Assembly: GCF_937951745.1 (NCBI RefSeq)
Contig: NZ_CALFBQ010000007.1
Span: 1-64,000, forward strand
DNA length: 64,000 bases
Source of the DNA: an uncultured Chloroflexus sp.
GTDB taxonomy: Bacteria; Chloroflexota; Chloroflexia; Chloroflexales; Chloroflexaceae
Direction: 5' to 3'
Under the pieces are notes generated by a model. It saw only the letters and a program-made list of their open reading frames with translations, searched no databases and was not told the DNA's origin. Shown here one piece after another: positions 46,392-52,221 of this stretch; the stretch's first letter is position 1, and each line of letters opens with the position of its first letter. Made by a program: the position numbers and the translations under genes.

Positions 46392-47468
46392 TCATACCAC
46401 CAACCTGCCCCCGTCCACGATCACCCGATCATCGGCGCGCAAGCTGGCGGCAGTGGTGGCGAAGTCGATCGCGAGTGACGAGACATTGACCCCGCCGAGA
46501 TACTGGTTCTCGCCAAACGCGATGCTGATCGCCCCCTGAATGTGCCGGTCAACCAGCGGCCAGCCAATCGGCTGGCGCAGGTGTGGGTTAAGGCCAATCC
46601 CGATCGTGCTGATCCGGCCCAGTTCACCACTGCGTTGGGCCAAGAGCGCCGTGAGCTGATCACCGCCGCTGGCAGCTTCAATGCGGGTGATACGACCGTA
46701 GTTGAATTGGAGATGGGCGGCGCGCGCTGGGCCAGCCACCGGCAGGAAGAGTTCACCCTCGGCGCTCTCCTCAACGATCGTGGTGTAGAGCAAGCCTGCC
46801 GGCACGTTGCTCACAATCGTGTCTGCGGTTCCGCTGGTCGTTTCCAACCGGCCCGTATCGCGCAGCCATGACCGCTCGCCGCGCTGCACGCGCAGTTTGT
46901 AACCCGGCCCGCTGGTGATGGTGATAGTCTGCACCTGTGCCAACGTGCTTAGCACCCGCTCGCTGGCTGCGACCAATGCTGCCGGATCAAGCAGTAGCGC
47001 CGGCATTATGCGCAATTCCAAGTCTTCATGGCTGAGACCGAGCTGGGCCGCTTTGCCGATGGAGGGAATGGCGGCGATCACTTGCGGGATGCGGCGTTCG
47101 CACCGGATCGTTTCAAGCTGGTTGTACGTGGTTGTAAACGCGCGCAACGCTGCGTCCGGCGCGCGGCGCAGATCGGGTTGCGCGCCGATCAATGCCAACG
47201 AGCGATCTACGTGCTGTAGCCACTCCATCCGCCGCCGGTCACGGGAGGCGAGGATGTCTGGCGAGGTTGTGACCAACAATCGTTCGACGTGCTGCGCCGG
47301 CAGAATAGCGACCAGCGGCTCAGCACCAATGCTTTCCAGCGCCAGTAACACCGCATGCAACAGGCGCTGATTACCCGCCTCATCGCGCACCTCGACCAAT
47401 TCGCCGCGCTGCGCGCCGAGCGCATCAACTAGCCGCGCTGCTAGTTGATTCCACAAACTCTCGGCCAT
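46392..47468 (-). CDS. M29-like aminopeptidase-fold protein with most metal ligands lost
   Basis: The 358-residue protein starts with AAGGAG 7 nt before the ATG. Its second half aligns by eye with thermophilic M29 aminopeptidases (AmpS/AmpT). The segment usually written NLPDGEVFT is NVPAGLLYT, so the first metal glutamate is leucine. GEFGIGTNP becomes STIGIGLNP, replacing the second glutamate. The histidine of the HLALG strand is serine (ISIAFG). The HWD pair is AID. Only the final aspartate and overall fold signals (IDRHIQGA, YLGGVN) remain. It probably does not hydrolyse peptides with the usual metal site. It is the last gene of an operon with a U32 protein, 11 bp apart. Confidence 0.75.
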   Translation of the reverse strand: MAESLWNQLAARLVDALGAQRGELVEVRDEAGNQRLLHAVLLALESIGAEPLVAILPAQHVERLLVTTSPDILASRDRRRMEWLQHVDRSLALIGAQPDLRRAPDAALRAFTTTYNQLETIRCERRIPQVIAAIPSIGKAAQLGLSHEDLELRIMPALLLDPAALVAASERVLSTLAQVQTITITSGPGYKLRVQRGERSWLRDTGRLETTSGTADTIVSNVPAGLLYTTIVEESAEGELFLPVAGPARAAHLQFNYGRITRIEAASGGDQLTALLAQRSGELGRISTIGIGLNPHLRQPIGWPLVDRHIQGAISIAFGENQYLGGVNVSSLAIDFATTAASLRADDRVIVDGGRLVV

Positions 47469-47479
47469 GGCTGATCTCC

Positions 47480-49981
47480 TTACATCAACGGAATGTACTG
47501 GTAATTCGCCGGCACAAAGAAGCTACCTTCGGTGACGCCTTGCGGCGCGCTGTGCCGCCAGCGCCGGCCTAATTCGGCGGCGTCGATCTGCTGGTTGAGA
47601 TAGGCACGGAACGCTTCGGTGACAGCAGTGATCTGCGCTGCCGATTCATGCACGAATTCGAGTCGGTAGTGGGCGATGCCGGCGGCTCGCCAGCGGTCGA
47701 GGTATTTGCTCGCCTCTTGCGCTTCAGCGCCAAACACGGTGTTGCGGCAGCCGACGTCGGCGATCACCGGATGCGCGCGGCCCTGCGCGTCGCGCAACGC
47801 TACTCGGTGCCGTTCGCACGGGCGGCCACAATCTTTGTAGCTGGTACCGTTCGACAAGAAGCGGCAGAAGACGCAGTGTTCGGTATGGAACACGGGCAGA
47901 TGGTGATAGGCGATCGCTTCCAACCGGCTACCACCGATCTGCTCGGCCAGATGGGCGATCTGGTCGGCGTTGAGGTCGTGCGTCAGGGTGAGCCGTCGCA
48001 AGCCTAGACCAAGCAGCAGATCGGCGGTAAGAATGTTGGCAGCGTTGAGGCTGAAGTCGCCGGTCAACTCTACTGCCGGATCGTCGCGCAGCATGTTGAG
48101 CAAACCGGTCGAGCGCACCAAGAGCGGCGCGTCGAGTTTGCGCAAGAAGCGCACGACCCGATCGTCTTCCGGCTTGAGCACGCGCGGTGCAGCGATGCGA
48201 ACGGCGATGCCGGCGGCGCGCACTTGCGCTAACGCCGGCTTTAGCCCTTCCAGATCGAGATAGTCGAGCGTAATGCTGTCCGGACGCAGCGCAATCGCTG
48301 CTGCAAGCTGGTCAGGTGAGCGGATGAGCAGATGGAGATGGGTGGTGTCCGGCGGCGCTGCCGGCGCCACAGTGGCCAGCATCTCATCGAGCACGCGCGT
48401 CGGGTCGTGGATGGTGATAGCCGGCGGTTGGCCTTGCAATTCGGCGAGGGCGGCGGTAGCTTGCCGGCGCAACTGGTTGAGCAGCGAAACCGGCACGAAC
48501 GGCTTGCCCTCGATCACGGCAGTGAGTTCGGTTAACTGATACGCTGTGTCACCCAACCGGCCCAACTGGTCGCGCAGCGTTGCTTCATCAAGCGGGCGGT
48601 TTTGCGCTGTCGTCAGCGGTTCCGCACTCTGCACCACAACGGTGAGGTCTGGCTGATCAATCAGCGTCCAGCGCAGTATGAGCGGCGCGCCGGCGCAGGC
48701 GCTAGCGTCCACCCGCACCGGTTGGCGGCGCACCGGCGCGGCGGGCTGCACGAACGGACGGGCCACCCGTTCGGTCTGCGGGTCGCTGGTGCGCCAGAGC
48801 AGATCGCCAGCGCGGATGCGGCGCCGGTTGATCGCGCCTTTGGCAAAGGTCAGCGCCAGCAGGCCATTGCCGGCTGGGGTGACGGTAAAAATGCGCCCGC
48901 CCTCTTCCGGCTCTTCCGGGCTGCGCCAATCGGCGGCATCAAACACCACCCCATCGCCGGGTTTGAGTGGAGCCGCATCGCGGCCCGGCTCCGGTGCGAT
49001 AAGAATGGCGTCGGGCCGCACCTTCACCACCCGGCCCATCAACAAGCCGCGATGGCGCGGCGCGCGGCCCTCCACGACCGCCTGATGGTTGGTGCCGCGC
49101 AGGAAGTGCGGCCCTAACCCGCGTGAATAGACCTGCTCGAGGTGTAAGCGGTCGGCACTAGTTAGATCGGGCGGCAGACCGGCCCACGCCGCATCAAGCG
49201 CGCGGCGGTAGGCGTTGGTGGTAATCGCCACATACTCGGCATCTTTGTAGCGGCCCTCGATCTTGAGCGCGCTCACACCGAGGCGGGCAATCGTCGCCAT
49301 CTCGTCAATCGCCGCCAAATCGCCGGGTGAGAGCAGGTAACGGGCTGCGCCGAGCGGCTGATGTTGGCCGTCAACGATCAGATCGTAAGGCAACCGGCAG
49401 GCTTGGGCGCACTGGCCGCGATTGGCGCTGCGCCCGCCCCATGCTTCGGATGAAAAGCACTGGCCGGAGTACGAGACACAGAGCGCACCATGGACGAAGA
49501 TTTCCAGTTCGATCGGGCTGCGGGCACGGATCGCCGCGACTTCTGCCAGCGATAACTCGCGAGCCAACACCACCCGCGACACACCGTAACGAGCGGCTAG
49601 TGCGACTCCCTCGGCGCTGGTAATGCTCATCTGGGTACTGCCGTGGATCGGCAGATCGGGCGCGATCCGGCGGGCCAGCACCGCGATGCCTACATCTTGC
49701 ACGATAATCGCATCGGCCCCGGCAGCGGCAATCGCGGCTAGCGCCGTCGCCGCTGCACGCAACTCGTGGTCAAACACGAGCGTGTTAAAGGTCACATACC
49801 CTTTCACCCCCCGCCGGTGCAGCGTCTTCATCACCTCTGGCAGCTCATCAAGCGTAAAGCCTACTTTGGCGCGGGCGGTGAAATGGGTCAAACCAAAGTA
49901 GACCGCGTCGGCGCCGGCTTCAATCGCGGCGTGCAATTGCGGCCAATAGCCGGCGGGACTCATAATCTCAGGCTTGCGCAT
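47480..49981 (-). CDS. U32-family protein, RlhA/YdcP-like (peptidase U32, DUF3656)
   Basis: Large U32 protein of 833 residues from the ATG at 49981 (another ATG at 49996 is possible). The N-terminal TIM barrel begins PEIMSPAGYWPQLHAAIEAGADAVYFG and contains IHGSTQMSITS and IFVHGALCVSYSGQC. The four cysteines of the Fe-S site are present: C and C in ALCVSYSGQC, then RGQCAQAC. They match the cluster of RlhA/TrhP/UbiU-type enzymes, which hydroxylate RNA or quinone precursors rather than cleave protein. A DUF3656-like middle (RGLGPHFLRG) and a second barrel-like C-terminus with FHTEHCVFCRF follow. The closest known role is 23S rRNA hydroxylation, so an RNA target is likely but unproven. It lies between two apparently dead enzymes. 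Confidence 0.85.
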   Translation of the reverse strand: MRKPEIMSPAGYWPQLHAAIEAGADAVYFGLTHFTARAKVGFTLDELPEVMKTLHRRGVKGYVTFNTLVFDHELRAAATALAAIAAAGADAIIVQDVGIAVLARRIAPDLPIHGSTQMSITSAEGVALAARYGVSRVVLARELSLAEVAAIRARSPIELEIFVHGALCVSYSGQCFSSEAWGGRSANRGQCAQACRLPYDLIVDGQHQPLGAARYLLSPGDLAAIDEMATIARLGVSALKIEGRYKDAEYVAITTNAYRRALDAAWAGLPPDLTSADRLHLEQVYSRGLGPHFLRGTNHQAVVEGRAPRHRGLLMGRVVKVRPDAILIAPEPGRDAAPLKPGDGVVFDAADWRSPEEPEEGGRIFTVTPAGNGLLALTFAKGAINRRRIRAGDLLWRTSDPQTERVARPFVQPAAPVRRQPVRVDASACAGAPLILRWTLIDQPDLTVVVQSAEPLTTAQNRPLDEATLRDQLGRLGDTAYQLTELTAVIEGKPFVPVSLLNQLRRQATAALAELQGQPPAITIHDPTRVLDEMLATVAPAAPPDTTHLHLLIRSPDQLAAAIALRPDSITLDYLDLEGLKPALAQVRAAGIAVRIAAPRVLKPEDDRVVRFLRKLDAPLLVRSTGLLNMLRDDPAVELTGDFSLNAANILTADLLLGLGLRRLTLTHDLNADQIAHLAEQIGGSRLEAIAYHHLPVFHTEHCVFCRFLSNGTSYKDCGRPCERHRVALRDAQGRAHPVIADVGCRNTVFGAEAQEASKYLDRWRAAGIAHYRLEFVHESAAQITAVTEAFRAYLNQQIDAAELGRRWRHSAPQGVTEGSFFVPANYQYIPLM

Positions 49982-50014
49982 GGTTGATTGTTCCATAGGA
50001 TGATCGCGTCGCCG

Positions 50015-51016
50015 TCATCCACGATGTACCTTAAAAATCGACAGATACACATTCGCTGCATAACCGCAACTCGTGCAGCGGTTGCCTTCTAGCCCGACCT
50101 TCCGGCTTACCCCGTTCTGCCGGCTAATCAAGGTTGCTTGGCATACTGGGCAGCGCGTTGGCTGGTTAGGTTCCGGCCCATAGATAAACTGCAAACCGCT
50201 TTCGTGCCCGATGCGGCGCGCGCGCATGGTTGCGGCGGCAGTTTCACTGCCGGCATCACCCGGCAAAACGTGCCACGGCGTGTCCTCGCCGAGCGTGGTC
50301 TTGATCCAATTGACCATCTCACGTAGCTCATCGGGATGATCGTTAACGCCGTGGTGGATGCGGGTCGTTACTTCGATATGGCACTGCCAGCGTTGTTGCG
50401 CCTCTTCGGCGAAACGCAAAATCTGCCGCCAGTCGCTGATCCCGCCTAGCCGGTGGTAGGCATTATCGGAAAAGCCGCGCAGATCGAGGCTGATGCCGTG
50501 CAGGTACGGCCCTAACTCGCTCAGCGCCTCGCTACTCAGCATGCCGCTGGTGACAATAGCGGTATAGCGGCTGACAGCGCGGCTCAGTTGCAGCAACGCG
50601 AGCAGGTATTCAAAGTTCACCGCTGGCTCGCCAAACGCCCACACCACGCCGCGACAGAGCCGTTCGAGGGCGAAGTCGGCTGCGCGTTGCGGATCAAGCC
50701 GTCGTTGTTTGGCCGGATCAGTGGGCAACGCGCCGTATGAGCCGCGCTGTTGATCAACCGGCAATGCATAGCCCCAGCCGCCGATAGCTAGCGCCGTGGT
50801 GTCAGGGAAGAAGTGCCAAAGGCGATGATCTTCGATTGGGCCAATGGCGGCGCCGCTAATCAAGCCATGATTGAGCAGCTTGATGCCATCTGTACTCCCG
50901 ACCCGCATCTGGCAGCGTCCTACCTCTCCCGGCGCCAGTGTGCATCTCCAATGGCAGGCCAGACACTGAAAGCTTCCCTCGCCAAGCGGCTGTGCTAAGG
51001 TGGCCAGCGATGACAT
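50015..51016 (-). CDS. AmrS-like radical-SAM-fold protein lacking the CxxxCxxC motif
   Basis: The 333-residue protein follows the AmmeMemoRadiSam radical SAM plan throughout. The N-terminal zinc-like knuckle C18-x2-C21-x3-C25 with GRC35 is intact, as are IGPIEDHRLWHFFP, AFGEPAVNFEYLLAL, SLDLRGFSDNAYHRLGG and EVTTRIHHGVNDHPDELREM. Where the family has its cluster loop (a glycine-rich segment with CxxxCxxC), this protein reads GGWGYALPVDQQ (79-90), without cysteine. It therefore cannot bind the SAM cluster in the usual way. A C-terminal zinc ribbon (CPVC...CTSC) is added. It is first in the operon with the U32 gene. Loss of catalysis with retained fold suggests a binding or scaffolding role. 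Confidence 0.8.
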   Translation of the reverse strand: MSSLATLAQPLGEGSFQCLACHWRCTLAPGEVGRCQMRVGSTDGIKLLNHGLISGAAIGPIEDHRLWHFFPDTTALAIGGWGYALPVDQQRGSYGALPTDPAKQRRLDPQRAADFALERLCRGVVWAFGEPAVNFEYLLALLQLSRAVSRYTAIVTSGMLSSEALSELGPYLHGISLDLRGFSDNAYHRLGGISDWRQILRFAEEAQQRWQCHIEVTTRIHHGVNDHPDELREMVNWIKTTLGEDTPWHVLPGDAGSETAAATMRARRIGHESGLQFIYGPEPNQPTRCPVCQATLISRQNGVSRKVGLEGNRCTSCGYAANVYLSIFKVHRG

Positions 51017-51510: not shown

Positions 51511-52221
51511 ATGAGCGACAGTCATTCGTCACCAGATCCATTGGCTACTTCCCTTGAGGTTGAGCCGGTGCGCCATCCGCGTGCGCCGTTACGCTATGTG
51601 GTGCGCGAATTGCTTGAGACAGCGATCTTTATTCTGCTCATCTTTCTGATCGTGCGCGGCGTAGTGCAGAATTTTAAGATCGAAGGCTCAAGTATGGAGC
51701 CAACGCTTCATACAGGCCAGTATATTCTGGTCAATAAGCTGATCTATTTTCACTTTGACCTGAATGCGCCGCTGCGCCTGCTTCCCGGTCAGGCCGATTT
51801 GCCGCCACGCGTGGTCTACCCCTTCCGACCGCCGCAACGTGGTGATATTGTCGTCTTTGAGTATCCGCGTGATGTACGGAAAGATTATATCAAGCGCGTA
51901 ATCGGTTTGCCCGGCGATGTGCTCGAATTCCGCGAGGGTCGGGTCTATGTCAATGGCGAGCTGCTCGACGAGCCGTACCTGCGCGGCGCGTTTACCTACT
52001 GTCTCGGCGGCTATCCCTGCGCGCGGGGGCCGATCACTGTGCCGTCCGGTTCGATCTTTGTGATGGGAGACAATCGCGGCAATAGCTCCGATTCGCGGGA
52101 ATGGGATGCGCTGCCGCTCGATCGGGTGGTCGGGCAGGCGTGGCTGATCTATTTTCCTTTCAGCGATTGGGGGTTGGTACCCCACCATCGCTACGATACC
52201 GTGACCGCCGCGACGCCGTAA
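51511..52221 (+). CDS. lepB: signal peptidase I
   Basis: Membrane serine protease that removes signal peptides after Sec or Tat export. The 236-residue protein has one N-terminal membrane helix (TAIFILLIFLIVRGVVQNF, near residues 37-55). Box B, GSSMEPTLHTGQY, has the nucleophile S61. Box D, YIKRVIGLPGD, has the general-base lysine K128. Box E is MGDNRGNSSDSR. The region RLLPGQADLPPRVVYPF is an insert typical of longer bacterial SPase I. The Shine-Dalgarno sequence is weak. A glycosyltransferase follows 11 bp downstream. Confidence 0.96.
   Translation: MSDSHSSPDPLATSLEVEPVRHPRAPLRYVVRELLETAIFILLIFLIVRGVVQNFKIEGSSMEPTLHTGQYILVNKLIYFHFDLNAPLRLLPGQADLPPRVVYPFRPPQRGDIVVFEYPRDVRKDYIKRVIGLPGDVLEFREGRVYVNGELLDEPYLRGAFTYCLGGYPCARGPITVPSGSIFVMGDNRGNSSDSREWDALPLDRVVGQAWLIYFPFSDWGLVPHHRYDTVTAATP

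Follow-up and report, generated by a model that had tools for sequence, protein, structure and literature searches.

The gene considered here lies in the window, i.e., the whole 64,000-nucleotide stretch of DNA that was analysed, and encodes a relative of AmrS, the radical SAM member of the AMMECR1/Memo/AmrS (AmmeMemoRadiSam) system, that is devoid of the CxxxCxxC motif and is called pseudo-AmrS in the following. The ORF starts at 51016 on the minus strand and ends with a stop codon at 50015-50017. The genes for an M29-like protein, a U32 peptidase and pseudo-AmrS form a tight same-strand run in the window, and a signal peptidase I gene is the steadiest neighbour on the other side:

50015..51016, minus strand: Cys-less AmrS-like (pseudo-radical-SAM) gene, 333 aa plus stop codon
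50741..50782, minus strand: former cluster-binding loop, residues 79-92 counted from the ORF start (GGWGYALPVDQQRG)
50912..50965, minus strand: N-terminal four-cysteine site, C18-x2-C21-x3-C25-x9-C35
50066..50152, minus strand: C-terminal four-cysteine site, C289-x2-C292 and C314-x2-C317, zinc-ribbon-like
47480..49996, minus strand: Peptidase U32 plus DUF3656 protein, 838 aa, 18 nt downstream of pseudo-AmrS
46392..47468, minus strand: M29-like protein (Pfam 26.1 bits, cut-off 27 bits), 11 nt downstream of the U32 gene
51511..52221, plus strand: signal peptidase I gene, head-to-head with pseudo-AmrS

This is a real Chloroflexus gene, in the frame and at the coordinates given by a sequence-only reading of this DNA, and its copy in C. 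islandicus is 95% identical. The curated AmrS model TIGR04337 matches the 333-aa ORF over residues 10-320 (E 2.1e-39), a similarity that includes both terminal four-cysteine sites, but the score of 135.4 bits falls below the cut-off of 220, which leaves the protein outside AmrS by curated score; the best clade member among the order matches listed reaches 178.7 bits. By common ancestry with canonical AmrS, as judged from the TIGR04337 match and a joint tree, it belongs to the family. The Pfam model Radical_SAM (PF04055) recognizes it with 33.6 bits, above the cut-off of 29.5; however, this alignment starts only at model position 25-26, past the cluster motif. The window's genome holds 14 Radical_SAM matches at E <= 1e-5, of which pseudo-AmrS is the weakest.

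Loss of the cluster cysteines across the clade

At the position of CxxxCxxC, pseudo-AmrS carries GGWGYALPVDQQ (GGWGYALP as read from the alignment), a loop which contains no cysteine, as the sequence-only reading had described it. The same region in the canonical relative L136 reads GTWGCNFHCQHCQN. An alignment of 120 rows comprises 62 with CxxxCxxC and 58 without; the latter are 57 clade orthologues, which stem from four families of the Chloroflexus order and three outside the order, and L052, a fragment of a canonical gene in which the region is missing. The canonical AmrS copy at L052 (G027:C30) seems broken, as two separate pieces match the family. The three-cysteine motif of radical SAM enzymes is found in 0/57 aligned clade rows, so the loss suggested by the single sequence is lineage-wide. 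The replacement loops differ within the clade: five loci of family f5 have GGYGxN[FY]P, L121 has GSSGGNAHS, and L116 (genome G087) has GGWGNNLACRH, which with its one cysteine looks intermediate. When the 57 rows were inspected for replacement ligands, a loop cysteine was present only in L116. Genome G087 encodes four AmrS homologues, L116 with its single loop cysteine and L123-L125, which possess CxxxCxxC. A relocation of the cluster to C121 and C212 was considered and is unlikely because neither cysteine is invariant (53/57 and 43/57, respectively).

The order search covered 82 genomes, of which 63 matched at E <= 1e-5. The orthologue was counted in 61 of them (a fragment in G037) rather than in 63 because G054 and G068 have only Cys-bearing AmrS. 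The gene was not found in 21/82 genomes, 19 of them without any match, including all 11 of genus g34, and some of the order assemblies without the gene are incomplete. In the class search 69 of 158 genomes matched and 67 contained the orthologue; 60 of these belong to the order, and the remaining seven (G082-G087, G089) come from other families. From the phylum, 400 genomes were drawn, and a near relative (at least 261 bits) was detected in 37 genomes outside the class; all 37 retain the three cysteines, as do 18 additional relatives at greater distance. When a tree was calculated from 80 rows without the loop columns, the 42 Cys-less rows all fell to the same side of a single branch (SH-aLRT 99); this was a quick search with midpoint rooting from which only the loop columns were removed, so that other eroded active-site columns may help to unite the clade. 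The simplest reading of these sequences is that the loss of the [4Fe-4S] ligands had one origin.

The sequence-only reading had named a sequencing error that removed a segment as a possible objection; with the same loss in all 57 orthologues this objection falls, and sequencing error or local deletion is ruled out. Among seven Chloroflexus orthologues, dN/dS was 0.055, 0.042 and 0.038 for the three pairs with dS < 0.6, the only ones relied on out of 21 pairs, as four were undefined and 14 had dS > 1.2.

Retained residues and predicted fold

Both terminal cysteine sites are kept, as had been noted from the single sequence. The N-terminal site is present in 57/57 clade rows and in 22/22 close canonical rows. 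The C-terminal site is present in 54/54 clade rows that reach it; the remaining three rows are L120 and L122, which were trimmed and have these cysteines in the untrimmed sequence, and the frame-broken L066. The further statement of the sequence-only reading that no other landmark of AmrS is missing was wrong: in the window D-P-[IV]-E-K-K-P has become GPIEDHR, WHxTRF has become WHVLPG, and CQNW is gone. The lysine of the DxK motif is R180 in the window, and K180 is found in 0/57 clade rows vs 22/22 close canonical rows. The clade likewise retains D59 in 0/57, K63 in 0/57, K64 in 1/57 and R252 in 0/57 rows, each of which is present in 22/22 close canonical rows. By the absence of CxxxCxxC, DPxEKKP, the DxK lysine and TRF, pseudo-AmrS thus differs from AmrS.

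Other positions show the opposite pattern. The arginines R38, R105 and R122 are each present in 57/57 clade rows vs 15, 9 and 4 of the 22 close canonical rows. Within the pocket, an acidic residue at position 130 and H213, E215 and N225 are each present in 57/57 clade rows and H249 in 53/57, and of these E215, N225 and H249 are invariant or nearly so across the 62 canonical rows as well.

An AlphaFold2 model of pseudo-AmrS has a pLDDT of 81.7 and a pTM of 0.78; it was calculated from ten sequences, four of which are canonical AmrS from viral contigs and may have steered the fold, and the loop is poorly defined (residues 88-93 with pLDDT < 50). An earlier model from six close sequences (pLDDT 48.6) was set aside. 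The predicted model adopts the partial TIM-barrel of radical SAM enzymes, and its top Foldseek match in the PDB is pyruvate formate-lyase activating enzyme (PFL-AE; E 4.5e-10), with which the predicted barrel superposes (PDB 3c8f, 3cb8). VIA-align of the model with 3c8f gives Z 21.4 over 216 residues with an rmsd of 2.6 A, compared with Z 16.7 for NifB. PFL-AE is also the best PDB match by sequence when a profile of 30 Cys-less rows is used (E 1.8e-5). In contrast to PFL-AE, with which it shares 14% identity, pseudo-AmrS lacks the cluster cysteines. The DxK lysine missing from pseudo-AmrS corresponds in the alignment to K131 of PFL-AE, a SAM-binding residue. The summary of the sequence-only reading, fold preserved and catalysis lost, therefore stands in its first half as a predicted fold (Z 21.4, pLDDT 81.7) and in its second half as far as the radical SAM cluster site is lost; a loss of catalysis would follow from the missing cluster ligands.

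Gene neighbourhood, AMMECR1 and Memo

The signal peptidase I gene stands head-to-head with pseudo-AmrS in 47/50 order genomes (the window, 28/29 loci L007-L035 and 18/20 loci L066-L085) and in 3/7 genomes outside the order, and it was not found beside close canonical AmrS at the 22 loci L136-L157. This pairing may reflect shared descent of the arrangement without a functional tie. The downstream neighbours vary by family. The U32 gene adjoins pseudo-AmrS in 7/7 Chloroflexus genomes and in 0/43 others, three of which (L025, L067, L078) have < 430 bases downstream; as the adjacency is confined to Chloroflexus, a general link to this peptidase, which is tRNA/rRNA-hydroxylase-like by NCBIfam at scores below the cut-offs, was rejected. 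The M29-like gene follows the U32 gene in the window, L002, L003 and L005, and its product had no match in NCBIfam.

A lipoate ligase cluster (c6) lies downstream on the same strand in seven loci, L079, L081 and L082 (f2), L083-L085 (f3) and L074 (f4), with gaps of ~330 to 710 bases, and is absent at L003 and L005, which are Chloroflexus loci. Clusters for glycine cleavage (c13, c14, c10) occur in parts of f2 and f4; the identities of the lipoate ligase and glycine cleavage clusters each rest on the scan of one representative. At L074, L079 and L081, lipoate ligase and glycine cleavage T, H and P clusters are found downstream of the Cys-less gene on the same strand. Kinase (c7) and PP2C (c8) clusters, as identified from representatives, are present in 7/7 loci outside the order and in 0/23 of the order loci compared.

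In the window's genome, neither AMMECR1 nor Memo was detected at E <= 1e-6; unlike an AmmeMemoRadiSam member, pseudo-AmrS is thus not accompanied there by detected partner genes. Among the 158 genomes of the class, AMMECR1 was found in 11 and Memo in 11, and among the 67 with the Cys-less gene AMMECR1 in 11, Memo in 10 and neither in 49, the window's genome included. In likeness to AmrS, the clade gene adjoins AMMECR1 in one related family, f2 (9/9 genomes), the only family with this adjacency; at L079-L082 the Cys-less gene comes first and AMMECR1 follows. Memo adjoins the Cys-less gene in 1/67 clade genomes, G087, directly after L116; elsewhere it is located on a different contig or at a distance of hundreds of kilobases. 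In the f2 AMMECR1 proteins the cysteine of the LRGC motif is replaced by serine in 2/9 (LRGSVGT; L079 in G049, L082 in G048), and it is kept in 19/19 AMMECR1 motif matches among canonical loci.

AMMECR1 is listed as an anaerobe feature in PMC13386939, whose Table 1 gives its prevalence as 3.38% of 4,227 aerobic vs 50.66% of 1,293 anaerobic bacteria, and it is placed among uncharacterised archaeal priorities in PMC6393860. Since AMMECR1 is rarer in aerobes according to that table, the loss of an oxygen-sensitive centre would fit a move of the lineage towards oxygen.

Proposed role of pseudo-AmrS

The most cautious conclusion is that pseudo-AmrS no longer has the site for the radical SAM cluster and is maintained for another purpose. 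As several families still keep the gene after the loss of the cysteines, a different, non-radical job is probable. Beyond this, we hold it to be quite probable that pseudo-AmrS is an old AmrS pseudoenzyme which lost its ligands, remains under purifying selection and is kept for binding or structure. In an ancestor of these Chloroflexota, the [4Fe-4S] ligands of an AmrS radical SAM protein would have disappeared, in the simplest case in one event, after which reductive SAM cleavage would no longer have been possible. The present work of the protein would be binding, via the barrel and the two putatively metal-stabilised ends, and the best guess for the target is either the macromolecule once modified by AmrS or a protein partner. 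The arginines R38, R105 and R122 might point to a negatively charged ligand, for instance RNA or a nucleotide, which is a guess from conservation. A new role, as the sequence-only reading had suggested, would agree with purifying selection and the invariant cysteine sites; of the roles named there (binding of RNA, SAM or a partner), SAM binding is the least likely because the DxK lysine is lost in 57/57 rows. Against the pseudoenzyme reading count the neighbours, which differ between families, the absence of a detected gene in 21/82 order genomes, the status of the fold as a prediction with a low-confidence loop, and the pocket, where the conservation of some residues makes residual or new activity possible.

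This last point leads to the main rival of the binding reading, a converted enzyme that has lost radical SAM chemistry and performs another, non-radical activity in the pocket of E130, H213, E215, N225 and H249. Such an activity would explain why these positions are invariant or nearly so in the clade, a conservation that a mere scaffold might not require; as E215, N225 and H249 are similarly constant in canonical AmrS they may have been inherited for structural reasons, none of the neighbours indicates one reaction, and we consider the conversion unlikely. Much less probable still is that radical or redox Fe-S chemistry persists with the N-terminal CxxCx3Cx9C as the cluster site. The four cysteines never vary in the clade (57/57), but they are equally invariant beside the canonical radical SAM cluster in 22/22 close rows and hence had another role before the loss; moreover, with four cysteine ligands no iron of the cluster would be free to bind SAM, and the DxK lysine is gone in 57/57 rows. 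Faulty sequencing or assembly, or a pseudogene in decay, in favour of which one orthologue with a frame broken near its end could be cited (L006/L066, from a metagenome assembly with a coverage of 4.6), can be dismissed in practice, given that 57 rows share the loss, single-contig genomes among them, with open frames and dN/dS of 0.04-0.06.

For the pseudoenzyme reading, the relatives contain what look like steps: one form retains a single cysteine and adjoins Memo, a second is Cys-less with AMMECR1 as its neighbour, and a third is Cys-less and stands alone. That a radical SAM enzyme has become a conserved protein without radical chemistry in this clade, with living step-like forms, and that it reveals the substrate or partner binding of AmrS apart from its chemistry, appears to us slightly favoured. 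If true, the pseudoenzyme would open a way into the AMMECR1/Memo/AmrS system, which is unexplained. A protein that has the shell but lacks the chemistry offers a clean route to asking what this system binds. In the titles and abstract openings of the open-access literature, a scope outside which most subscription journals lie, no description of a Cys-less AmrS or of a class-wide radical SAM pseudoenzyme was found.

A plasmid search returned six records with 26-29% identity. Viral contigs scanned with the alignment of the Cys-less clade yielded no relative, and other scans of viral contigs recovered canonical AmrS. Two IMG/VR viral contigs (L177:145-2346 and L178:148-2340) each encode a fusion of Memo, AMMECR1 and a radical SAM AmrS part in a single ORF (733 and 730 aa, respectively), with all three Pfam domains above their cut-offs.
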